IMG/VR virus record: IMGVR_UViG_3300031707_000203
Span: 1-22,121 of that record
DNA: 22,121 nucleotides
Origin: a virus
Strand: one strand, 5' to 3'
Shown: positions 5,931 through 19,642 of the stretch, in pieces
Position numbering within the stretch: position 1 is the first letter of the stretch
How the letters are laid out: each line of letters starts with the position of its first letter
Position numbers and translations under genes: made by a program
Notes under the pieces: model-generated
Database searches by the model: none
The model's input: only the letters and a program-made list of their open reading frames with translations
What the model was told of the DNA's origin: nothing

Positions 5931-7138
5931 AGATTCTCGGATTTTCTCCGCGCCCAAGTCAGGCCGCCATATTCTCTGCCGAAGAACGGTTCCTAATTCT
6001 CGACGCCGGAAGGCGATTCGGCAAATCGCTGACGGGCCTGAATTGGTTATTGGCGGGGGCGTGCGAGCGACCGAGAGAGAACTGGTATGTCTCCCCGATC
6101 TACTCGCAGGGCAAAATGGCATTCCGCACATTTCTATCGGCGGCGCACAAGGGCAGAGCCGAGGACGTGTTCAAGAACATCTCCCATTCCGAGATGCGGA
6201 TCGAGTTCATCAACGGCGCGGCCATGACCTTCAAGAGTGCCGACAACCCGGACAACCTGCGCGGCGAAGGACTGCATCGCGTAGTCGTGGACGAGGCGGC
6301 TAGGGTTAAGCGCGAAGTATGGGAAGCAATCCTTCGTCCAGCCGTATCCGATACGCACGGGCGCGTGCTGTTTATTTCGACGCCTAAAGGCAAGAACTGG
6401 TTCTATGAGCTTTGGACTCGCGGGCAGGACGTCCTGCAGCCTGAATTCGAGAGTTGGAAATTCCCGACGGCTGATAATCCAAAGGTCAGTCCGGAGGACA
6501 TCGAGCAGGCCCGGCAATCGCTTCCCGTCGATGTGTTCAGCCAGGAATACTTGGCCGAGTTCCTTGAGAACAGCGCGGGCGTATTCAGGAACATCAACGA
6601 GTGCTTGGGGTCATGCCGCGAGGAGCCGCTCCCCGGCAAGGAATACTTTGCCGGCCTCGATTTGGCACGGCTCACAGATTTTACGGTCTTGACGATCCTC
6701 GATGCGAAGGGGCGGCAGGTTTATTGGGACAGATTTAATTTACTGGACTGGACGGTTCAGAAAGAGCGGATCATCCCGGTCATCCGTCGCTACAAGGCAA
6801 AGCTCAACGTGGACGCGACGGGCGTGGGCGATCCGATCTATGAGGACTTGCGCAGAGCTGGCCTCAACGTCATGGGCTACAAGTTCACAGCTGAGAGTAA
6901 GAAGAAGCTCATCGAGACCCTGATGATCGGGTTCGACCAGAAGAAGCTCAGCATCCTGGATGAGCCGGTGCAGACGAACGAACTCGACATTTTCGAGTAT
7001 GCCATCGGGTCATCGGGCATGGTGCACTATGCGGCCCCCGAAGGGTATCACGATGACTGCGTAATTTCTCTTGCTCTCAGTTACTGGCTCGTGGGAGGGC
7101 CAATAATTATTCCCGGTGTGGCAAGGATTCGATGGTGA
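5927..7138 (+). CDS. Terminase large subunit (packaging ATPase and nuclease)
   Basis: This is the DNA-packaging motor of the phage. Residues 1-210 are the ATPase: Walker A G28-R-R-F-G-K-S34, Walker B VVVDEA 119-124 with the catalytic glutamate, and the coupling motif STPKG 151-155. Residues 240-390 are the RNase H-like nuclease that cuts concatemers, with acidic residues D245 (GLDLARLTD), D296 (VDATGVGD) and D376/D377 (YHDDCV). The 403-residue length is short but within the range for this group; all key motifs are present. It overlaps the small subunit by four bases and ends 13 bases before the portal start. Confidence 0.95.
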   Translation: MKILGFSPRPSQAAIFSAEERFLILDAGRRFGKSLTGLNWLLAGACERPRENWYVSPIYSQGKMAFRTFLSAAHKGRAEDVFKNISHSEMRIEFINGAAMTFKSADNPDNLRGEGLHRVVVDEAARVKREVWEAILRPAVSDTHGRVLFISTPKGKNWFYELWTRGQDVLQPEFESWKFPTADNPKVSPEDIEQARQSLPVDVFSQEYLAEFLENSAGVFRNINECLGSCREEPLPGKEYFAGLDLARLTDFTVLTILDAKGRQVYWDRFNLLDWTVQKERIIPVIRRYKAKLNVDATGVGDPIYEDLRRAGLNVMGYKFTAESKKKLIETLMIGFDQKKLSILDEPVQTNELDIFEYAIGSSGMVHYAAPEGYHDDCVISLALSYWLVGGPIIIPGVARIRW

Positions 7139-7151
7139 GGATGGAAAAACG

Positions 7152-9599
7152 ATGAATATATTTACCCGATTATTTTCCCGTAAGCCGGAGGTCAAGGCCA
7201 ATCCTGCATATAGGGCGATCCTCAGCACGTACGGACCCGGGACTCCCATCTGGACGCCGAGGGATTACGGCAACCTCACGAGGGCGGGTTATCAGTCATG
7301 TGCCACCGTCTTCGCCTGCGTATCCAAGATTGCCAAAGGCGCATCGCGCATCGGATGGACGCTCGGAAAGCGGCAGGCGGGCGGTGAGATGAACGAGATT
7401 GAAGAGCATCCGTTACTTACGCTCCTGGCCAAGCCTAATGAATCCGAAGGCGGCTCGCGGTTCATCGAGAAGGCGCTGTCGTTTCTCCTGCTGGCCGGGA
7501 ACAGCTACATCCTCAAGGTGCATGGTGCTCCGTCGGTTCCGCCCGAGTTTCTTTATGCGCTCAGGCCCGACAGGATGAAGATTGTTGCCGGGGCGTGGAA
7601 GGAACCTGTTGCTCGATACGAATATTCGCCCGGAGCCGCGATTGAGAAATTTGAGGCTCGGGACATCCTGCACTTGATGGAGTTCCATCCGACAAACGAC
7701 TTCTATGGGCTGTCGCGCCTTGAGGTTGCGGCACGCGCCATCGACATATCGAACAAGAGCATGGAGTGGAACAAGAAACTCCTCGACAACGACATGCGCC
7801 CGTCGGGGATTATCACGCTTGACCCGGCGCTCATGGAAGAGCAGTTCAATACCTTCGTCACGAAGTTCACCGAGCAGTATGCGGGCTATAAGGGGGCTGG
7901 CTCGACGCCGATCTTTAACGGCGGTGTCACGTGGCAGGCGACGGGCCTGAACCCGAAGGACATCGACTGGACGGTCGGGCAACGGGAAATCATGCGGCAG
8001 ATATGCACGATTTTTGACGTCTGCTCACAGCTCTTGGGCGACACCGAGAATACGACCTATTCGAATATGCAGGAGGCTCGGAAGGCGCTCTATATGGAAG
8101 CGATTCTTCCGTTCATGGACCTGCTGCGCGATGAACTGAACGCCTGGCTTGTGCCGCTCTATGGCGATGGGCTTTACCTCGATTATGACCGGGACGAGAT
8201 CGAAGCGCTACAAGAGGACCGGGCAAAACAGTATACCTACATCGCGGCGGCTGACTGGTTAACGATAAACGAGAAGCGGACCGCGACGGGGTATGATGAG
8301 GTTGGACCGGAGGGCGACGTGATCCTGGTGGGAATCGGCAAGATCCCATTAGAACAGGCAACGGCTGAACCCGAACCCGTACCCGATACACTCAAGCCGT
8401 TTGCCGACGGGGGCGCTGTGGACGGAGGGGCGGACGCTGAACCGGGGACCGATGAAGAGCCGATGCCCGAAGAGGATCAGGACAAGGTGCAGGCCATCGG
8501 CGCTCCGGAGCGAAAGCCATTCCCCAATGAACATTCGTGTAGGCTGCAGGAACCTTCGAAGTTCGACCGTATGCGCCGGGGAACGCGGAAGCACGAGGGC
8601 AAGATATACAGCATCATCTTCGGCCACATCAAGGGCGGTGATTCGTGGGAGGAGCAGGCATACCGATACGCGAAGGATGTTTGGGACGCCGATGAGGCCC
8701 GTACTCATTGCGCCGCTCACGACGGCAAGTTCGAAGCGGCGAGCGGGAAGTGCCAAGAGTGCCGACATGAGCTCAAGGGCACAGGATACTGGGCCAAGCC
8801 CGAACTCAAGGAGCGGCTCTGGAAGACGCTGGAGGCGCGGGTCAAGGCACGGGAGAAGTCGTTCGAGCAGATGGCGAAAAGCTATCTCCACGCCCAGGCC
8901 GATGCACTCCGGCAGAAGGCCGCGCGGCTCGGCTCTACGAGCGGCGTTCATGCCGCCGATATATTCAACGTCAAGGAAGAGGCGAAGCGATATGCCCGGA
9001 CATTCACGCCCTGGTATATTGATCATTTCATCCGTGCGGGCAACGCGGGCATGAGGGCTTCGAAGGGCGAACTATTCGACGACGGTGAGTTCAAGGCTCA
9101 GGCATGGAAGGGCGATCCCAAGAAGCCGACATCCTGGGTCTTCACGATGACGCCCGCTCAGGACGCGAAACTCAAGGACATGATCTTCAAGTCGGGGACG
9201 AAGGTGAGCGAGACGACGCTTGAGATTGTCGAGCGGATGATCTACGAGGCCAATGATTCAAACTGGACGGTCGGGCAATTCGCGCAGAATTTGAGCGATA
9301 AAGCTACCGACCTTGGGCCGTGGAGATCACGGCTCTGGGCAAGGACGGAGAGCGCGAAGGTCGATAACTACGGCGCGGTCGAGGGATTCAAGGAAACCGA
9401 GTTTGTAGAGCTGAAAGGCTGGATGTGCTCCATGGTTCCGGATAGTCGGGAATCGCACATCGCGGCCGATGGCCAAGAGGTCGCACTGGACGACGATTTT
9501 AGCGTCGGCGGAGAACAGCTCGGCTTTCCGGGCGATCCACGGGGCAGTGCCGGGGAAGTGTGCAATTGCCTTTGCGGCACGTATCCGGTCGTCGCTTAG
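7152..9599 (+). CDS. Portal protein fused to an FPNEH domain and a MuF-like head morphogenesis domain
   Basis: This 815-residue protein has three parts. Residues 1-400 are an HK97-type portal, the ring at the DNA entry vertex (ACVSKIAKGASRIGW, LLLAGNSYI, GLSRLEVAARAID, RQICTIFDV, LLGDTENTTYSNMQEARK). A Glu/Asp/Pro-rich linker covers 402-450. Residues 456-531 hold a small domain with PFPNEHSCRL, then YRYAKDVWDADEARTHC and DGKFEAA, a recurrent phage domain of unknown function; CQEC follows at 534-537. Residues 550-815 are MuF/SPP1 gp7-like, ending KGWMCSMVPDSRESHIAADG, then GFPGDP and NCLCGTYP. The usual portal and minor head protein are separate genes. ATG 7152 is preferred over GTG 7116 because it leaves a normal portal N-terminus and follows GAGGATGGA. 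Confidence 0.9.
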   Translation: MNIFTRLFSRKPEVKANPAYRAILSTYGPGTPIWTPRDYGNLTRAGYQSCATVFACVSKIAKGASRIGWTLGKRQAGGEMNEIEEHPLLTLLAKPNESEGGSRFIEKALSFLLLAGNSYILKVHGAPSVPPEFLYALRPDRMKIVAGAWKEPVARYEYSPGAAIEKFEARDILHLMEFHPTNDFYGLSRLEVAARAIDISNKSMEWNKKLLDNDMRPSGIITLDPALMEEQFNTFVTKFTEQYAGYKGAGSTPIFNGGVTWQATGLNPKDIDWTVGQREIMRQICTIFDVCSQLLGDTENTTYSNMQEARKALYMEAILPFMDLLRDELNAWLVPLYGDGLYLDYDRDEIEALQEDRAKQYTYIAAADWLTINEKRTATGYDEVGPEGDVILVGIGKIPLEQATAEPEPVPDTLKPFADGGAVDGGADAEPGTDEEPMPEEDQDKVQAIGAPERKPFPNEHSCRLQEPSKFDRMRRGTRKHEGKIYSIIFGHIKGGDSWEEQAYRYAKDVWDADEARTHCAAHDGKFEAASGKCQECRHELKGTGYWAKPELKERLWKTLEARVKAREKSFEQMAKSYLHAQADALRQKAARLGSTSGVHAADIFNVKEEAKRYARTFTPWYIDHFIRAGNAGMRASKGELFDDGEFKAQAWKGDPKKPTSWVFTMTPAQDAKLKDMIFKSGTKVSETTLEIVERMIYEANDSNWTVGQFAQNLSDKATDLGPWRSRLWARTESAKVDNYGAVEGFKETEFVELKGWMCSMVPDSRESHIAADGQEVALDDDFSVGGEQLGFPGDPRGSAGEVCNCLCGTYPVVA

Positions 9600-11454: not shown

Positions 11455-12276
11455 ATGAACGCGCACTATATTCCTGAACGGTTCAAAAGCGGGATCAAGG
11501 TGGATTACATCCTTTCGGATGGCGATCAACTGATCGATCAACCCTTCCAAGATCCCCATGAGACAAGTCTCGTCAAGGTTTTTGACATCGGTACTCGCCT
11601 TCAAATCGGCGAGCGGGTGTACCGCTATGGGTTTTTCTTCGCTGCATCATCGGACATTCATGCTGTAGTGGATAGGAACACCGATGCGGCCGATGGCTTC
11701 TACGAGGCGACCAATCTGGTTGCCGGGGCTGTCGGAGATAAGACGGTCGTAATCCGTGACGTTGCCGCGAGAGCGGTTGACCATTACAAGGGCGGATGGG
11801 TCAACCTGTTCCATTCGGCTGCCGCACAGTCAGCGACCAACCATGACCAATGGCGGAGGGTTACGTCCTCGACGGTCAACGCGGGCGGGGGCGGGACAAC
11901 CATCACGCTGGGGCTCGACTATCCGTTGACCAGCGTATGTGTCACGGGTGTTGCTGCCACTCCATCCAATTATTCCAAGATGGGCGCTCCCCTGGCGGCT
12001 GGTAACGAAGTCTTTGTTGGCTTCCCCTGCCGTCATCACGCGGCCAGCACCTTCGGATGGGTTCAGACGTGGGGGCCCTGCATGGGTCACTACAACCTGG
12101 CCTATCCTGGTTCCATCGGTGCACCGGGAGACCGCGAGGTTTACTTCAACGCATCCGGCGAGATCATCACCCCAAAACAGGGCGGAGCTGACGCATACGT
12201 GTCCTATCAGAGAGCCGGCTACATCCTGACGACCGGCGGCGGCACCACGTTCTTCATGCTGCAACTTGGCGCATAA
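11455..12276 (+). CDS. Probable head decoration or capsid-stabilising protein
   Basis: The 273-residue product directly follows the major capsid gene, the usual place of decoration proteins. It is beta-rich and Gly/Ala-rich, with little sign of coiled coil or enzyme motifs. Blocks such as IGTRLQIGERVYRYGFFFA, AVGDKTVVIRDV, YKGGWVNLF and the final YILTTGGGTTFFMLQLGA recall structural phage proteins that coat particles. Strong AGAAGGAG precedes ATG 11455. The role is inferred mainly from gene order. A second capsid-associated protein of other function cannot be excluded. Confidence 0.6.
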   Translation: MNAHYIPERFKSGIKVDYILSDGDQLIDQPFQDPHETSLVKVFDIGTRLQIGERVYRYGFFFAASSDIHAVVDRNTDAADGFYEATNLVAGAVGDKTVVIRDVAARAVDHYKGGWVNLFHSAAAQSATNHDQWRRVTSSTVNAGGGGTTITLGLDYPLTSVCVTGVAATPSNYSKMGAPLAAGNEVFVGFPCRHHAASTFGWVQTWGPCMGHYNLAYPGSIGAPGDREVYFNASGEIITPKQGGADAYVSYQRAGYILTTGGGTTFFMLQLGA

Positions 12277-12590: not shown

Positions 12591-13508
12591 ATGCCGGACC
12601 TAGTGACCTTAACAGACCTCAAAACCTACCTCTGGCCGGGCGAGACGATTACGAAATGGGACACCATCCTCCCGGCGATCATCTCGGCCGTGTCCGAGCA
12701 GATCGAGCGCGAGATCGGGTGCAGTATTGCACGGGCGTTTTATACGGCAAAGGCCGGGTTGTCTTTCGTCGTCACCGCCTTGAATAACAAGATCGACTTC
12801 GATGAAGGGGGCGCCGCCCTGGTTGGGACCGTGACCATCGGCACATACACGGGCGCGACGCTGGCAACGGCAATCGCCGCCGCCATGAACGCCGCGGTTG
12901 GAAAGACATTCACCTACACGTGCGTCTATTCAACTACACTCGGCACATTCACCATCGCCGCCGGATCGAATTTTACCATCCGGTGGAACACGGGCACGAA
13001 TAAAGCTATCGACATTTCGAACCTTTGCGGATATTCCGATACCGCCAACTCTACGGGAGCCAAGACTTACACGGGCTACCGAGTCGGCGATGAAGGGAAG
13101 GCGAGCGGGCGCGGGTCGTCGCTATTGTTTCTCCCGGCTTGGCCGATCATCTCGGTCATCTCCGTGGTCGATAAGGATGCGGTCGCCCTTACGGAAGGCG
13201 ATGACGAGGATTATGTCATCTCTCCCGGCCCGCCATGCTTCGCACTCCAGCTTAACGAGGGCGTTTGGGACAAGGGGTCGGGGAACTTCACGGTGAATTA
13301 TCTGGCCGGTTACGCGACGGTCCCGGCGGACATCGTGCTCGTAGCATATGAACTGATTGCCCGGAAGTGGAAGACGATGACGAAACAGGAATGGGGGGAG
13401 AGTAGCCGAACGTTCCCGGACGGATCGACCGGCTCGGTCAATGCGGACGGCGCACTGACGAAATCACAGATGGGAATTCTTGCGAAATACAAACGGCCAA
13501 TTTTATGA
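12591..13508 (+). CDS. Head-tail connector (gp6-like) with an inserted domain
   Basis: The 305-residue product is longer than usual for this connector family. The N-terminal helices (LVTLTDLKTYLW, IISAVSEQIEREIGCSIARAF) and the C-terminal half (LLFLPAWPIISVISVV, DYVIS, NFTVNYLAGYATVPADIVLVAYELIARKWKTM) match gp6-like connectors that form the ring under the portal. Between them, residues about 55-162 form a separate domain (GTYTGATLA, GTFTIAAGSNF), listed separately. Without it the connector would be about 197 residues, a normal size. GAGCTGAAC precedes ATG 12591. The stop overlaps the next gene as ATGA. Confidence 0.8.
   Translation: MPDLVTLTDLKTYLWPGETITKWDTILPAIISAVSEQIEREIGCSIARAFYTAKAGLSFVVTALNNKIDFDEGGAALVGTVTIGTYTGATLATAIAAAMNAAVGKTFTYTCVYSTTLGTFTIAAGSNFTIRWNTGTNKAIDISNLCGYSDTANSTGAKTYTGYRVGDEGKASGRGSSLLFLPAWPIISVISVVDKDAVALTEGDDEDYVISPGPPCFALQLNEGVWDKGSGNFTVNYLAGYATVPADIVLVAYELIARKWKTMTKQEWGESSRTFPDGSTGSVNADGALTKSQMGILAKYKRPIL
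12753..13076 (+). repeat. Inserted domain in the head-tail connector, related to the one at 18566-18892
   Basis: Residues about 55-162 of the connector contain NNKIDFDEGG, GTYTGATLATAI, FTYTCVY, GTFTIAAGSNFTIRWNTGTN, LCGYSD and TGAKTYTG. The second tail-tube protein has the same order of blocks: HHIDLAEG, GTYTGAALAAEM, AYTVTY, KFTIAASGAFELLWHSGSHN, LLGFAHTD and TGQATYT. The similarity is at protein level. This looks like a mobile beta-rich display or interaction domain spliced into structural proteins. Confidence 0.7.
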
Positions 13509-14053
13509 CGGACGGAATAGGCCTTCGCGCAGATTTTAGCGGGGCGATCCGCAAGACGCAGACGCTGAAGATGCTCCCAAAGGCCCACAAATGGCAAGCT
13601 ACGAATTGGACGACCAGCACGGTTAAACTTCTCATGGCCTCGGCTGATGCCATGCAGAAATCCGGCCCGAAAAAAAAGACGGGCATGATGAAAAGGAATG
13701 TTGGTTACCAAATCGCTACGGGTGATAACCGTTGGCAAATTGCCATCGGAACGGGCATTGGCGGCAAGAAAACAGTCCCCTATGCGCTCATTCAGGATAA
13801 GGGTGGGATAACGAAACCCCATCTCATTCAGGCGAAAGCAGGAAAGGTCCTGGCTTTCATGGTCGGATCGGACACGAGATTTCTGCGTCATGTCCACCAT
13901 CCGGGATCGAAAATTCCAGCTTCCGGTTGGTTCAGTAATGTTTTAGCTAAACAAGAGCCGATCCTTTCGGCGATGATGCAACCCAACGTAGTGCTTCAGG
14001 TTGCCGAAATCATGGCAAGCGGAGCCGTGGGGATGAGGTCAGAAACTATATGA
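13505..14053 (+). CDS. HK97 gp10-like / Mu gpG-like head-tail joining protein
   Basis: The 182-residue product has the typical pattern of this group: an early helical region, a basic stretch (KSGPKKKTGMMKRNVGY), then VPYALIQDKGGITKPHLI and the late HPGSKIPASGWFSNVLAKQEP, which matches the usual I-P-A-R/S-x-W-F end motif. Such proteins join the head connector to the tail completion proteins. The start overlaps the connector stop as ATGA, supporting co-translation. A 61-base gap with only a weak 5-pair inverted repeat follows. Confidence 0.7.
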   Translation: MTDGIGLRADFSGAIRKTQTLKMLPKAHKWQATNWTTSTVKLLMASADAMQKSGPKKKTGMMKRNVGYQIATGDNRWQIAIGTGIGGKKTVPYALIQDKGGITKPHLIQAKAGKVLAFMVGSDTRFLRHVHHPGSKIPASGWFSNVLAKQEPILSAMMQPNVVLQVAEIMASGAVGMRSETI

Positions 14054-14114
14054 GCGGAGATGATGGCGGGTAGTTCCGCAGGGAAATTAGCGTAAAGAAT
14101 TTTAGGAGGATAAC

Positions 14115-14495
14115 ATGGCGAAACTCATTCCAGATGCGATCATCGACCTGATGCTGGACATCATCGGAGCATCAAACGGTGACAGACTATTCATCTGCTC
14201 GGCGCAACCGGCAACGTATGCGGAGGCGGCCTCGACCTATGACTTGGCGACGCACATCCTGACGAGCGGAGACTTTTCGAAGGACAATGGGGACACGTCG
14301 GGCCGGAAGCTCATCCTGGCGGCGCAGAACGGATTCAGCGTCGATCATAACGGGGATGCAACGCATTATGTCATCGGCAAGTCAGGTGACACAAGCATCA
14401 GACTCATCGGGACGCTGACGCTCCAAACGCTGACAGCGGGCAACCTGGTTAATTTCCCGACGACCGATATCGACGAAATCCGAGACGTGGCGTAA
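14115..14495 (+). CDS. Small phage structural protein of unknown role
   Basis: The 126-residue product starts LIPDAIIDLMLDIIGASNGDRLFICSAQPATYAEA and continues with LTSGDFSKDNGDTSGRKLILAAQNG, GDATHYVIGKSGDTSIRLIG and TLQTLTAGNLVNFPTTDIDEI. I recall this pattern in small proteins located between head and tail genes of many environmental phages, with no known function. TTTTAGGAGGATAAC gives a very strong ribosome site. The next gene starts 10 bases after the stop. Confidence 0.65.
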   Translation: MAKLIPDAIIDLMLDIIGASNGDRLFICSAQPATYAEAASTYDLATHILTSGDFSKDNGDTSGRKLILAAQNGFSVDHNGDATHYVIGKSGDTSIRLIGTLTLQTLTAGNLVNFPTTDIDEIRDVA

Positions 14496-14504
14496 GAGGC
14501 TTTC

Positions 14505-16220
14505 TTGGCCATTACGCTGCGATCCGTCGGGGCCAGCCCTGGGGCGAATTCTGCGAACTGTATTATCACGAAGCCCGCAGGCCTGGCCCTCGGCGACTTC
14601 ATGCTGGCGCATGTCGTCAACAAGGCGACATCCGGAACCATCACGCCCCCGGCTAACTGGACGATAATCGGGGCACAGTCCAACACGGCAAGCTCCCGCT
14701 CGGCCCTGTTCTATAAATTCGCCGTCCAGACCGACGTTGATGCCACGACTTTCACTTTCACCCTCGGCACAACGGGGCGCAACCGCGGGGAGATGGCGGC
14801 TTGGCTTGGCGTTGATACCTCCAGCCCGATCAACGTAGCGGATCAGCAGATTAACGCCGCCGGGACTTCCATCGCCGTTCCCACCCCGACGGTCACGAAT
14901 GGATGCACCGTCCTTATCATCGGCAGTAATGCCTTGGGCGGCGTAGCGACCGCGTGCTCCGGGTCCGATCCGACGGCGACCATCACGCTCGGCTATGCCG
15001 TCGCTTACAGCACATACTGCGCGCTGGCCTGCTTCAGCGGGGTAAAGTCAGGCACGGATGCGATAGACGCCCATTCGACTAGCACCTACACATCTGCCGT
15101 CAGTAGCGGACACGCGGTAGCCCTGACGCCTGCGGCTCTGCCGATCGACCTCGTGCCCGCCGAAGGCAATCAGACAGAGGGTAGTGATGCACCCGCCCTG
15201 ACTCAGGAACATCAGCTGGTGGCAGCGGAGGGCTATCAGACAGAACTTTCAGACGCGCCCGTTCTGACGCAGGAGCATCAACTCGCGGCGGCGGAGGGGT
15301 ATCAGACCGAACTTTCGGATACTCCGGCATTAACGCAGACGTTCGTCTTGGCGGCCGATGAGGGAACGCAGGATCAGGTTTCCGATTCTCCGGCGATCGA
15401 GCAAGTAATTCCGCTCGTCCCGGCGGAGGGAGCACAGGACCAGATATCGGACGCTCCGGCGCTGAGCCAGATTCATAGCCTCATCGTCGCGGAGGGGGCG
15501 CAAACTCAACTTTCGGACGCGCCTGCCCTAAGCCAAGAACATCATGTCATCCCCGCCGAGGGTGTCCAGACACAGGCCTCGGATACTCCGTCGCTCGCTC
15601 AGGTTCATGTTTTAGCACCGGCGGAAGGGGCGCAAGTGCAAGTGTCCGATGCTCCGGCATTCAGCCAGGAGCATCACCTTGCCGCCGCCGAAGGCTCGCA
15701 AACTCAGGCGTCAGACGCGCCAGGATTGACGCAGACGCATTATCTCCAAGCGGCTGAGGGATACCAAGGGCAAGCGTCGGATAGCCCGTCCTTGAGCCAA
15801 ACGCATATCTTGGCGGCCCAAGAGGGGGCGCAAACACAGCTCTCCGATCAGGCGACACTCGGCATTGAGGGCGGCGCAACAGACCTAATCCCAGCAGAGG
15901 GCGTTCAGACCCAGGTATCCGACGAAGCGACCATCGACCGCATCATCGCGCTCATGGCCGACGAGGGCTATCAGACGCAACTCTCCGATGAGGCGGCGTT
16001 TTATCTGGAGTTTTTGCTTGAGGTTCAGAAGGGTTATCAAGAGCAGTTCTCCGATTCGCCGGACTATTTGATTGAGGAGACCGGACAGGAGCTGGCTTTC
16101 AGCCCGGATCGGGGTCGGACAATCAAGCCCGTAGTCCTGACGCATCGGAACGAAGCACAGGCAGTCGTCAGCCATCGCCCGCGGAAACGTTGGCTAAAGG
16201 GTACGGGGATTCCGGTATAG
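14505..16220 (+). CDS. Large structural protein with a beta-sandwich-like head and 14 tandem 22-residue repeats
   Basis: This 571-residue protein starts at TTG 14505, with AGAGG 5 bases upstream. Residues 1-210 resemble a secreted or virion beta-sandwich module (ITKPAGLALGDFMLAHVV, PPANWTIIGAQSN, FYKFAVQ, FTFTLGTTGRNRGEMAAWLGVD). Residues 215-525 are 14 tandem repeats, each containing G-x-Q-x-[EQ]-x-S-D. The C-terminal 45 residues are basic (THRNEAQAVVSHRPRKRWLKG). There is no signal peptide or membrane segment. It sits between head-tail joining and tail-tube genes, unusual for a fibre gene. It may be a head or tail-shaft fibre or a decoration protein. I do not recognise the repeat family. 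Confidence 0.7.
   Translation: MAITLRSVGASPGANSANCIITKPAGLALGDFMLAHVVNKATSGTITPPANWTIIGAQSNTASSRSALFYKFAVQTDVDATTFTFTLGTTGRNRGEMAAWLGVDTSSPINVADQQINAAGTSIAVPTPTVTNGCTVLIIGSNALGGVATACSGSDPTATITLGYAVAYSTYCALACFSGVKSGTDAIDAHSTSTYTSAVSSGHAVALTPAALPIDLVPAEGNQTEGSDAPALTQEHQLVAAEGYQTELSDAPVLTQEHQLAAAEGYQTELSDTPALTQTFVLAADEGTQDQVSDSPAIEQVIPLVPAEGAQDQISDAPALSQIHSLIVAEGAQTQLSDAPALSQEHHVIPAEGVQTQASDTPSLAQVHVLAPAEGAQVQVSDAPAFSQEHHLAAAEGSQTQASDAPGLTQTHYLQAAEGYQGQASDSPSLSQTHILAAQEGAQTQLSDQATLGIEGGATDLIPAEGVQTQVSDEATIDRIIALMADEGYQTQLSDEAAFYLEFLLEVQKGYQEQFSDSPDYLIEETGQELAFSPDRGRTIKPVVLTHRNEAQAVVSHRPRKRWLKGTGIPV
15147..16079 (+). repeat. 14 tandem 22-codon (66-base) repeats
   Basis: Each unit reads approximately x-L-x-A-A-E-G-x-Q-T-Q-x-S-D-A-P-A-L-x-Q-x-H. 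G, Q, S and D of the G-x-Q-x-[EQ]-x-S-D core are present in all 14 units, and the EG pair in 13 (KG in the last). Unit 11 is 25 residues, with a GGA insertion before the next unit. DNA copies differ at many third positions, so the array is old or under protein-level selection rather than newly expanded. Confidence 0.85.
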
Positions 16221-16230
16221 GAGACTATGA

Positions 16231-16521
16231 ATGAGTGATTTAATCGTCGAAAAAGCGGTGGCCGAGAAATGGGAGGTTGGCCTTTATTATTATCCGCCTG
16301 ACGTAGACGATGTGAATACGATTATCTCGGCGACAGCAACCGTAACACCGGAAGGATTAGTGCTCGATGGAGACGTTAGAATTTCCGGCCCACAGGTCAT
16401 GCAGATGATGCACGGGGGGACGAAGGGAGTGCTCTATTTGATTCAATTCACAGTTAAGACATTGAATGGGAGTTCTTATTGTCATCCCGTCCATGATGCG
16501 AGAATCGTGAGAGTAATATAA
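16231..16521 (+). CDS. Small phage structural protein, possible fibre/tail adaptor type
   Basis: The 96-residue product has the layout KWEVGLYYYPP, IISATATVTPEGLVLDGDVRISGPQV, HGGTKGVLYLIQFTVKTLNG and a final strand HDARIVRVI. This matches my memory of a family of small phage proteins with a 'T-I-x-x-A-x-V ... G-G-x-x-G-x-x-Y' pattern that lies near tail-completion genes. A small beta-barrel or Ig-like fold is likely. GGAG lies about 9 bases before ATG 16231. Its TAA shares one base with the next ATG. Confidence 0.6.
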   Translation: MSDLIVEKAVAEKWEVGLYYYPPDVDDVNTIISATATVTPEGLVLDGDVRISGPQVMQMMHGGTKGVLYLIQFTVKTLNGSSYCHPVHDARIVRVI

Positions 16522-17000
16522 TGCCAACAGCACCTCTGCGCCTTCAGGTCATCGACCGCATCGTCGCGGTCCTCCAGGGCATCTCGACGGGCGCGACCTA
16601 CTTTTACACGCCCGGCGCAGTCGTCAAGCGCTTCGTCCATTGGGCCGAGGCCGTTGATTTCCCGACCTACATGGTTTTCACGGGCTCCGGCGGCAAGGTC
16701 GAACTCAGCGGCGCGGCGGGTGACGAAAGCGAATATACCGAGGACTTTTACATTTCGGTCAAGGGGATCGTCAAGGACAGCATCGACACCGTAACAAGGC
16801 TTGAGAACTGCATCGCCGACATCAGGAAGGCTATTGACGCGGACTCGCGGAGCGGGGCGGCGGGGAGTCTGGGCGCTCTGGCCGTGGAGGTCAGAATCGA
16901 AGAGAGTCCGGAAACGGATGACGGATATTTGAGCCTGGACGGATTCGGGTTTTTCGATCAGAAGGTCCGGGTCTCAATCGCGGGGGTCATGGGGGTATGA
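16521..17000 (+). CDS. Probable tail terminator / tail completion protein
   Basis: The 159-residue product begins with a helix LRLQVIDRIVAVLQGIS, then strands (YFYTPGAVVKRFVHW, FPTYMVFTGSG), YTEDFYISVKGIVK, a helix TVTRLENCIADIRKAIDAD, and late strands ending FFDQKVRVSIAGVMGV. This helix-strand order is typical for tail terminators (gpU-like), which cap the tail tube and join it to the head. The position just before the tail-tube genes agrees. It starts by a one-base overlap with the previous stop (TAATG). Confidence 0.7.
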   Translation: MPTAPLRLQVIDRIVAVLQGISTGATYFYTPGAVVKRFVHWAEAVDFPTYMVFTGSGGKVELSGAAGDESEYTEDFYISVKGIVKDSIDTVTRLENCIADIRKAIDADSRSGAAGSLGALAVEVRIEESPETDDGYLSLDGFGFFDQKVRVSIAGVMGV

Positions 17001-17001
17001 C

Positions 17002-17202
17002 ATGAAAGTGAAATGGGCAAAGAGCGACCAGCATACGGAGTTTGGCCTGTTCAGGGTCGGACACATCATTGACATGGCGGCTCTGGGCGTTCCCGATGAG
17101 GCCGTCTCGTCATGGGTTAGGGACGGGTATGCCGTCGAAGTGAAGCCGGAGCGGGAATCGAAAACCGAATCCCGTCCGGCAAAGAAAAAGGCATCGAGAT
17201 AG
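17002..17202 (+). CDS. Small hypothetical protein with a lysine-rich tail
   Basis: The 66-residue product has an N-terminal MKVKWAKSDQ, a strand/helix FRVGHIIDM and DEAVSSWVRDGYAVEV, and a basic tail (RPAKKKASR). The layout resembles the 77-residue protein at 12355, probably the same small domain used twice in the structural region. The start lies 1 base after the previous stop, with no strong ribosome site of its own, so translation by reinitiation is likely. The function is unknown. Confidence 0.6.
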   Translation: MKVKWAKSDQHTEFGLFRVGHIIDMAALGVPDEAVSSWVRDGYAVEVKPERESKTESRPAKKKASR

Positions 17203-17211
17203 GAGGTCAAA

Positions 17212-18267
17212 ATGGGCGATATCGAGAAAAGGTTAAACAAGGCGGCCATCAAGGTTCAGTCGGACACGTCGAAATGGGGGATCGTGGTCGCGGGCCTGGT
17301 CGGCGCGGGCAACGGTATCCTGCCGTTAAACCCCGGCTCGCCGAAGCGGAACGTCCAGATGCTCGAGGACGAAAGCGCGTCGGCCTTCGACGTCAACCTG
17401 GATGTCGGGACATGGGGGGCTTCGGACTTCGGTCTGGACTTCGATTACCGATGGGACGGCCTGGAAAATATTCTCCTCGGCCTCCTGATGGGTGTCGACA
17501 CGAACCCACAAGTGCAGGATGTGCTGGCTTTCCAGCACACGATCACGATGAAGGACTCCGCGGTCGGATTGTTCGCATCTTACGCAACCGAAAAGTTTAG
17601 CGAAGTTCACACGATTCCCACCCTCAAGGTGCTCAAGATGACGCTGTCATCCAGCGGCGGGCTGATTAAGGCGGCGTTCAACGTGAGGGGAAGCGACATC
17701 ACGTCCGAGACGGCAACCCTTACGGGGGTCACGGTCCCGGCCAATGCGCACTTTCGGGCGAAGTTCCAGCAGGCCATGTTCAGGATGAACGACTACGCGG
17801 TCGCGGGCGGGGGCACGGGCCTCGGCGCGGGTCATGTCATCAAGCCGAAATCGTTCTCGCTTGAGATTGAACGCAAGATGGATGCGGAGCATACCTCGGG
17901 AAGTCAGCAGATCATCGAACCCATCGAGAACGATAAGCCGAGCGTGAAACTTACGATGGAGTTTCCGCGCATGGATGCGGTGAACGCCGCTTATTTTGCG
18001 GCATGGACGGCACTCCCGATCACCGTCGACAAGAAGGCCGATATCTGCATCACGGGCCCGGTCATCGAGGCGGCCCATGCCTACGAACTCGACATTCATC
18101 TGCCGCATCTCATCATCGAGGACGTGGAATACGCGGACAGCAAGATCATCCCCTCCAAGATCGTCCTGCGGGGCGCGGTTGCGGACGAAATACAGACGGA
18201 CATGGCCGACAAATTGCCTGCGGCTATTTACCTGACGAACACGAGAGCGGCTACCCTGGTCGCATAA
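17212..18267 (+). CDS. Tail tube protein, first of two tandem paralogues
   Basis: The 351-residue product starts MGDIEKRLNKAAIK and has blocks LPLNPGSPK, DFGLDFDYRWDGLEN, AVGLFASYATEKFSEVHTIPTLKVLK, GGLIKAAFNVRGS, FSLEIERKMDAEHTSG and DVEYADSKIIPSKIVLRG. It is clearly more than half identical by eye to the following protein outside an insertion. Position after the tail terminator and before the chaperone pair and tape measure indicates the tail tube subunit, which stacks in rings along the tail. AGGAGGTCAAA precedes ATG 17212. I do not recognise a named tube family signature, so the assignment is contextual but strong. Confidence 0.75.
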   Translation: MGDIEKRLNKAAIKVQSDTSKWGIVVAGLVGAGNGILPLNPGSPKRNVQMLEDESASAFDVNLDVGTWGASDFGLDFDYRWDGLENILLGLLMGVDTNPQVQDVLAFQHTITMKDSAVGLFASYATEKFSEVHTIPTLKVLKMTLSSSGGLIKAAFNVRGSDITSETATLTGVTVPANAHFRAKFQQAMFRMNDYAVAGGGTGLGAGHVIKPKSFSLEIERKMDAEHTSGSQQIIEPIENDKPSVKLTMEFPRMDAVNAAYFAAWTALPITVDKKADICITGPVIEAAHAYELDIHLPHLIIEDVEYADSKIIPSKIVLRGAVADEIQTDMADKLPAAIYLTNTRAATLVA

Positions 18268-18277
18268 GGAGACGCAC

Positions 18278-19642
18278 ATGGCGGACATTGAGAAAAGGCT
18301 AAATAAGGCGGCGGTCAAGAAGGCCGGGACATGGGGGACGGCCGTCGATACCGACGCGGCCGGGATGGGGTTTCTGCCCCTGAACCCGGGATCGCCGAAG
18401 GCGGCGGTGCAGATGATGGAAGACGAGGCGGCCTCGGCGTTCGAGGGGAACCTGGACGTCGGAGTCATCAACCCGTCGGACTTCGGGCTCGACTTCGACT
18501 ACCGCTGGGACGGGCGGGAGAACCTCCTGCTGGCGATGCTGATGGGGGCAGCCGGGGTCCCGGGGATGTATTTCATCGTGAGCAACGCGAACCACCACAT
18601 CGACCTTGCGGAAGGCGCAGGTGAATTACCCGCTACACTCACGAATGGAACCTATACCGGCGCAGCCCTTGCCGCAGAGATGAAAACACAACTGGACGTG
18701 GCCGGAGCATTGGCCTACACAGTCACCTATGTCGAAGCGACCCGGAAGTTCACCATCGCGGCATCGGGAGCATTCGAACTCCTTTGGCACTCGGGGTCGC
18801 ACAACGCAGAAGGGCAGGGCGTCTTACTCGGATTCGCTCACACCGACTTGACCGGACAGGCTACCTATACATCGGATGGCGCCGGAGTCGGTGCCGGGCT
18901 CAACTATCTTCACTCCTTCGTCCTGGCCAACTCGACCGTCGGACTTTTCGGAACCTATGCGACGGAAAAGTTCACCGCCATCCACACCGTCCCGACGTTC
19001 AAGGTGCTGAAAGGCACGTTCTCGCTGAGTGGCGGACTCATCAAGGCGGCTTTCAACCTGCGGGGGAGTGAGGTCACGGACGCCTCGCCGCTCCCGGCGG
19101 CCTTCACATCGACGACCGTTACGGGCAATACCCACGCCCGGGCGAAGTTCCAACAAGCCGTCTTTCAAATGACCCCCCAGGGTCATGCGGGTTTTGACGG
19201 ATCGACGGATATTCTTCGACCCAAGTCCTTTACGCTGGAGATCGAACGAAAAATGGATTCGGAACACGTGGCCGGTGCCCAGATCATCGTCGAGCCGGTG
19301 GAGAACGACAAACCGTCGGTCAAGTTGACGCTGGAATTCCCGAGGATGGACGCGGTAAACGCGGCCTATTTCGCCGACTGGATTGCAGGGACGGCCGCGG
19401 CGGAGAAAAAGGCGGAGCTGGTCATCACGGGTCCGGCTATTCAGGGTGCCTACAACTACTACCTGAAGTTCGAGTTCCCGAGGCTCATCGTCGAGGACGT
19501 CGAGTATGCCGACTCGAAGATCATCCCGGCCAAGATCGTTCTGCGCGGGGTGACGGCGGATACCGCGCCGACGGACATGGCGGCTACCGTCCCGGTAGTT
19601 TGCCAAGTGATGAATACCAGGACGGCAGACTATCTCGCTTGA
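18278..19642 (+). CDS. Tail tube protein, second paralogue with an inserted domain
   Basis: The 454-residue product matches the preceding protein almost throughout (MADIEKRLNKAAVK, LPLNPGSPK, DFGLDFDYRWDGREN, FTLEIERKMDSEHVAG, DVEYADSKIIPAKIVLRG). It differs by about 109 extra residues at positions 97-205, described separately. TAAGGAGACGCAC precedes ATG 18278, 10 bases after the first copy ends. Two tube proteins could mix along the tail or form distinct parts of it; the insertion would likely protrude from the tube surface. The sequence does not show whether one copy is used in greater amount. Confidence 0.75.
   Translation: MADIEKRLNKAAVKKAGTWGTAVDTDAAGMGFLPLNPGSPKAAVQMMEDEAASAFEGNLDVGVINPSDFGLDFDYRWDGRENLLLAMLMGAAGVPGMYFIVSNANHHIDLAEGAGELPATLTNGTYTGAALAAEMKTQLDVAGALAYTVTYVEATRKFTIAASGAFELLWHSGSHNAEGQGVLLGFAHTDLTGQATYTSDGAGVGAGLNYLHSFVLANSTVGLFGTYATEKFTAIHTVPTFKVLKGTFSLSGGLIKAAFNLRGSEVTDASPLPAAFTSTTVTGNTHARAKFQQAVFQMTPQGHAGFDGSTDILRPKSFTLEIERKMDSEHVAGAQIIVEPVENDKPSVKLTLEFPRMDAVNAAYFADWIAGTAAAEKKAELVITGPAIQGAYNYYLKFEFPRLIVEDVEYADSKIIPAKIVLRGVTADTAPTDMAATVPVVCQVMNTRTADYLA
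18566..18892 (+). repeat. Inserted domain in the second tail-tube protein, related to the one at 12753-13076
   Basis: The first tube paralogue goes from LLMGVDTNPQVQDVL straight to AFQHTITMKDSAVGLF. The second has the whole block MYFIVSNANHHID through QATYTSDGAGV between LMGAAGVPG and LNYLHSFVLANSTVGLF. The inserted block shares the order of motifs GTYTGAALA, FTIAA, a W-x-SG-x-N loop and LLGF-x-x-TD with the connector insertion. The pair of paralogues defines the insertion edges to within a few residues. Confidence 0.75.

Follow-up and report, generated by a model that had tools for sequence, protein, structure and literature searches.

A small predicted alpha/beta module inserted in tail-tube, connector and other virion proteins of uncultured tailed phages

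The head-tail connector and the second tail-tube protein encoded in the window (the whole 22,121-nucleotide stretch analyzed here, IMG/VR virus record IMGVR_UViG_3300031707_000203) carry homologous copies of one small module, which is a true insert in the connector, in the tube and in a third protein. Sequence comparison indicates that the two copies were acquired separately from a shared pool and not recently copied within this virion. The module belongs to a known kind of element, the promiscuous virion accessory domains, as a new family not yet listed; its range of hosts is unusually broad and its predicted fold differs from that of phage Ig-like domains, and by analogy it probably serves as a reusable surface attachment or cement piece of virus particles.

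Accessory domains of phages are usually described as Ig-like add-ons, often located at protein ends. Here, one small domain whose predicted fold differs occupies loops in tube, connector, tail, neck and nozzle proteins, and matching empty sites define several of the insertions. The module offers a natural map of where virion proteins have insertion-tolerant loops, and a direct way to test the function of such decorations.

The reading frames and coordinates given in the first-pass annotation for the connector and for the two tandem tube paralogues, tube1 and tube2, were correct (Table 1). The connector is gp6-like as proposed, since the C-terminal half flanking its insert matches the head-tail adaptor profile PHROG_442, and tube2 has the double tube-domain fold of T5 pb6, with Z scores of 26.8 to the P74-26 tail tube and 22.7 to that of T5. 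The two inserts align by blastp at 37% identity across 105 residues (E 1e-18), and a comparison of the whole connector with the whole of tube2 yields the insert as the only meaningful match. Their Smith-Waterman score is 168, as compared to a mean of 34 (sd 6, maximum 63) for 2000 shuffles, or a Z of 22. The blastp and shuffle results together confirm the earlier claim that the inserts share one domain type. Tube1 lacks the block, as had also been noted, and outside it the two paralogues align along their whole length. The proposed edges stood in part: the tube2 end (18892) reaches about 5 residues into the linker, and the core is set here by profile envelopes.

Table 1. Genes and module copies in the window, and host proteins of the module
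Feature	Window position or locus	Strand	Basis or remark
gp6-like head-tail connector, 305 aa, carries module	12591..13508	+	PHROG_442 head-tail adaptor E 7.5e-22, residues 159-303
Module copy 1, connector residues 59-163	12765..13079	+	Profile envelope; AlphaFold2 model
Tail-tube paralogue 1 (tube1), 351 aa, site empty	17212..18267	+	Alignment with tube2 outside the module
Tail-tube paralogue 2 (tube2), 454 aa, T5 pb6/P74-26-type double tube fold, with module	18278..19642	+	AlphaFold2 pLDDT 80.2; Z 26.8 to 8ed0_A, 311 residues
Module copy 2, tube2 residues 99-200	18572..18877	+	Profile envelope; residues 97-205 match EhV-201 penton insertion domain, Z 13.7
Host: pb6-type tail tubes			Two different sites in L018
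Host: Phage_tube_2 tubes	L098		Pfam PF18906
Host: gp6-like connector			
Host: PHROG_8610 tail proteins			
Host: FN3-containing tail proteins	e.g. L030		
Host: neck-like protein	L052, L085		L052 named from reading the sequence, no family match
Host: nozzle-like protein	L057, L085		PHROG_511 match
Host: tail-like protein	L096		Named from reading the sequence, no family match
Host: small protein	L053		Named from reading the sequence, no family match

That the block is a true insert follows from empty-site relatives of the connector, the tube and the PHROG_8610 tail protein; homologues without the module exist for all three, so it is dispensable to the host protein. Connectors carry the module in L002, L004, L013, L019 and L020 and lack it at the site in L016, L003, L010, L006, L026 and L023, and a comparison at the same site set 6 connectors with the module beside 4 close relatives without. 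In phages of the window type, the module is present in 16/16 sampled tube2 proteins and absent from 13/13 tube1 proteins, in a sample skewed to carriers because some search peptides came from inside the module. The sharpest pair concerns the PHROG_8610 tail protein, which contains the module in L008 and not in L011; the flanks share about 80% DNA identity, and the insert appears as a clean in-frame gap. No obvious target-site duplication was seen at the insert edges inspected, including those of this pair. Consistently, in tube2 the host part accounts for the match to the P74-26 tube and residues 97-205 for that to a giant-virus penton domain, which upholds the view that the block entered unrelated proteins and, together with the empty-site homologues, that it is not intrinsic to their folds.

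In-frame inserts with empty-site homologues would also fit an intein, or an RNA-level intron, that is removed before assembly. We consider this exceedingly improbable, given that the module, at about 105 residues, falls short of the minimum length of an intein and lacks the splicing end residues: alignments of 18-45 copies have no conserved N-terminal Cys/Ser and no C-terminal Asn + Cys/Ser/Thr. The confident predicted fold and the conservation at the protein level also weigh against it, as does an Rfam search, which had no match in the window.

The hosts of the module extend well beyond the window. Searches of IMG/VR, queried with single sequences, and of GTDB genomes gave 57 domain matches with E no higher than 0.01 in the initial loci and 82 once more scans were added. 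The carriers are uncultured tailed phages in IMG/VR plus a few metagenome-assembled bacterial genomes, all of them metagenomic contigs or MAGs, and 132 genomes from the phylum of the Zixibacteria carrier held only the known copy. About nine host families, drawn from different parts of the particle, carry the module (Table 1). In L030, it splits an FN3 domain: Pfam fn3 matches at full length (25.8 bits, cut-off 25) only with the module left out. In L085:736-4290 (residues 514-730), a second module encloses a complete one, and the homologous protein of L057 has one module at the place of the nested pair. The joined outer halves are 72% identical to the single L057 module and the inner module 71%. 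Although L085 is a 5.2-kb contig, a repeat error of assembly is unlikely, because identity between the inner and outer copies is only about 60%.

The module appears to be unlisted in the family databases searched. No Pfam family scored above its cut-off; pAdhesive_6 matched below it (E 0.0016-0.0037), and no family above threshold supported the glycan binding suggested in the first-pass annotation. PHROG_644, whose function is not assigned, gave a weak sequence match to 3/18 modules (profile positions 81-163, E 0.0075), below usual significance. Searches of cultured phages and plasmids by tblastn with both inserts, the consensus, both host proteins and other carriers returned nothing, with a terminase query as positive control finding 3126 records. 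Among the papers searched, none described this module in phages.

Also observed was another promiscuous module, unrelated to the first and about 82 residues long, in L018:7948-8751 (residues 126-207) and L031:2-1789 (residues 53-136), at 41% identity and E 7e-20. Its hosts are the L018 connector, in a different loop from that of the main module, and the L031 PHROG_8610 protein, which suggests that these phages generally tend to acquire small domains in loops of their proteins. In L031:2-1789, an extra domain (residues ~137-275) lies between the second and the main module; its sequence has a beta-rich look, it is possibly carbohydrate-binding, and it has no Pfam match.

The first-pass annotation had the module spreading within one virion, and two copies in one genome, with several relatives likewise holding two, could suggest recent copying inside this phage. 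We regard such copying as very unlikely. In an AU test, a tree with the window pair as sisters is rejected (p 4.7e-45), and in every two-copy genome tested each module is closer to one elsewhere than to its partner; in the window, the partners are 38% identical to each other versus 96% and 76% to modules elsewhere. The tree test and the identities thus refute recent intragenomic copying; all the modules may nevertheless share an ancient common origin.

The preferred reading is that the module was taken up separately and repeatedly from a common pool and passed between different host genes, as the same two lines of evidence would indicate. The module tree conflicts with host protein identity, and on its well-supported branches no fewer than 4 changes are required for the tube label and likewise for the PHROG_8610 label. 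The module of the L008 PHROG_8610 protein is the sister (100/97) of the window tube2 module, the two being 76-77% identical, and an AU test rejects placing the L008 module outside the tube clade (p 0.002), a group that was named after the tree was seen. The window connector module groups with other connector modules, in a larger clade to which other phages contribute tube and PHROG_8610 modules. The occupied L004 connector falls apart from the window type in a host tree that is poorly resolved there, and a second gain of the module by connectors is possible on this placement.

The prediction that the insert is a self-contained domain is borne out by AlphaFold2, which models it alone with a mean pLDDT of 96.3 and a pTM of 0.90. 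The model has a strand at each end, one 13-residue helix and a long strand, so that the original description as beta-rich holds insofar as the module is mostly beta, but the fold is properly alpha/beta. Its best structural match is the EhV-201 penton insertion domain (Z 13.1), from a chain that is likewise a fitted AlphaFold2 model, and PBCV-1 P1v1 follows with Z 10.9 and an rmsd of 1.8 A over 101 residues. The predicted fold is thus of the giant-virus penton insertion type (P1v1 domain I). In the model of whole tube2 (pLDDT 80.2), the host part aligns with the P74-26 tail tube along 311 residues. Separately, the module there matches the penton domains, with Z 13.7 (EhV-201) and 11.8 (P1v1), above the next matches. 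Lower structural matches of the module include the E217 sheath, mavirus and adenovirus pentons, flagellin and FliD; the BFVD matches listed were mostly giant-virus minor capsid proteins, and CD58 (Z 2.0) was the only Ig-like fold among the structural matches listed. A profile search of the PDB ranked PBCV-1 P1v1 first at a marginal E of 0.072, the other sequence matches there being chance-like. A match to the designed protein Scone-R (E 0.0004) was set aside, as it sums short repeats of which no single stretch passes alone.

Among known systems, the phage Ig-like accessory domains (Big_1, Big_2, I-set, FN3) are comparable in habit. They occur in several classes of virion protein, are horizontally exchanged and are unneeded for tube formation, and one in YSD1 is inserted within the tube core (PMC9022992). 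The module likewise is a dispensable accessory domain found in, and exchanged between, several unrelated virion protein classes. Unlike them, it is predicted to be alpha/beta, matches penton insertion domains and is absent from Pfam; it is also loop-inserted in nearly every host seen and itself lies inside an FN3 domain.

The penton insertions are comparable in predicted fold, being inserts in a virion protein as well. Insertion domain I of P1v1 comprises DE-loop residues 59-203 and 370-385 and encloses a nested domain II (210-367) (PMC9617893), and the EhV penton insertion spans 538 residues in five small domains (PMC11006232). The nesting resembles that of the L085 module, although the nested site differs. 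In contrast to the tail tube, connector and other tail proteins that host the module, the host of these insertions is the jelly-roll penton of a eukaryotic virus, and sequence similarity to the module is marginal (profile E 0.072). Extra domains of contractile sheaths (E217, Mu, Milano, A-1(L)) have a similar fold at Z 7.9 to 3.7, where values below 8 may reflect a common arrangement; they are thought to have been added in evolution and to be located away from the tube (PMC9230969). No sheath gene was identified in this window, unlike in contractile-tail systems. The variable domains of flagellin FliC and the cap FliD, outer domains of a self-assembling tube but of a different polymer, match weakly (Z 4.7 to 3.8). 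It is doubtful, yet conceivable, that the module is truly homologous to the penton insertion domains and to the sheath and flagellin variable domains, as a plug-in that crosses realms, entering the virion proteins of unrelated viruses, and even its own copies, through in-frame insertion. Such homology, if true, would link phage-tail decoration with eukaryotic-virus capsid decoration via giant-virus vertex domains.

Where dS could be computed, dN/dS of the module was 0.03-0.3; such low values indicate that its protein sequence is under selection and argue for a functional domain. These values bear on the idea that the module is a selfish in-frame coding insert that is merely tolerated, like the Rickettsia palindromic elements. 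Promiscuous sites, one copy nested in another and presence or absence among close relatives would suit a selfish insert, but strong purifying selection, a conserved fold, identifiable hosts that are all virion proteins and the lack of target-site duplication at the inspected edges make it improbable.

We instead think it likely that the module, as a whole, is a mobile, self-folding virion accessory of about 105 residues, repeatedly acquired and displayed outward on the particle for adhesion and/or cement. Starting and ending in a strand, it can sit in frame within structural-protein loops and leave the host fold intact, and it would circulate among uncultured tailed phages, most likely via recombination, with repeated gains by tube2, connector, PHROG_8610 tail, FN3 tail, neck and nozzle proteins. 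The module most likely points outward from the neck ring and tail tube, as the DNA channel would be obstructed by several additional 11-kDa domains in each ring; other tube proteins offer precedents (PMC9022992). There it may act as a weak, many-copy contact that adheres to the host surface and/or cements neighboring subunits, a role proposed by analogy with Ig-like domains and penton insertions.

A narrower proposal, that the module is a structural cement or docking piece and not an adhesin, has an appreciable though lesser chance of being right. Modules of the neck, tube and tail tip would then contact neighboring subunits or a separate fiber, much as insertion domain I of PBCV-1 P1v1 forms a channel that anchors the spike while one of its loops clamps neighboring capsomers (PMC9617893). 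The nearest solved relatives are indeed such penton insertion domains, and all 16 sampled tube2 proteins of this clade retain the module. Connectors and PHROG_8610 proteins of close relatives nevertheless lack it, so those assemblies do not need it, and a single module in proteins from different particle parts also weighs against a role limited to cement.

Several other features were observed. A portal and a head-morphogenesis domain share one 827-aa frame (window 7116-9599) that matches PHROG_2662 nearly end to end. Directly after the major head protein, a 273-aa protein without PHROG match (11455-12276) is a candidate head decoration. Between the connector and tube genes, a 571-aa protein (14505-16220) has many degenerate short repeats (AEGxQTxxSDAPxLTQxH), and its gene contains a 66-bp DNA repeat unit at 15192-15338. 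Outside the window, a 1125-aa protein of a bacterial MAG (L061:3-3377), possibly a cell-surface protein, has five divergent module-like stretches with E values of 3e-7 to 3e-15.
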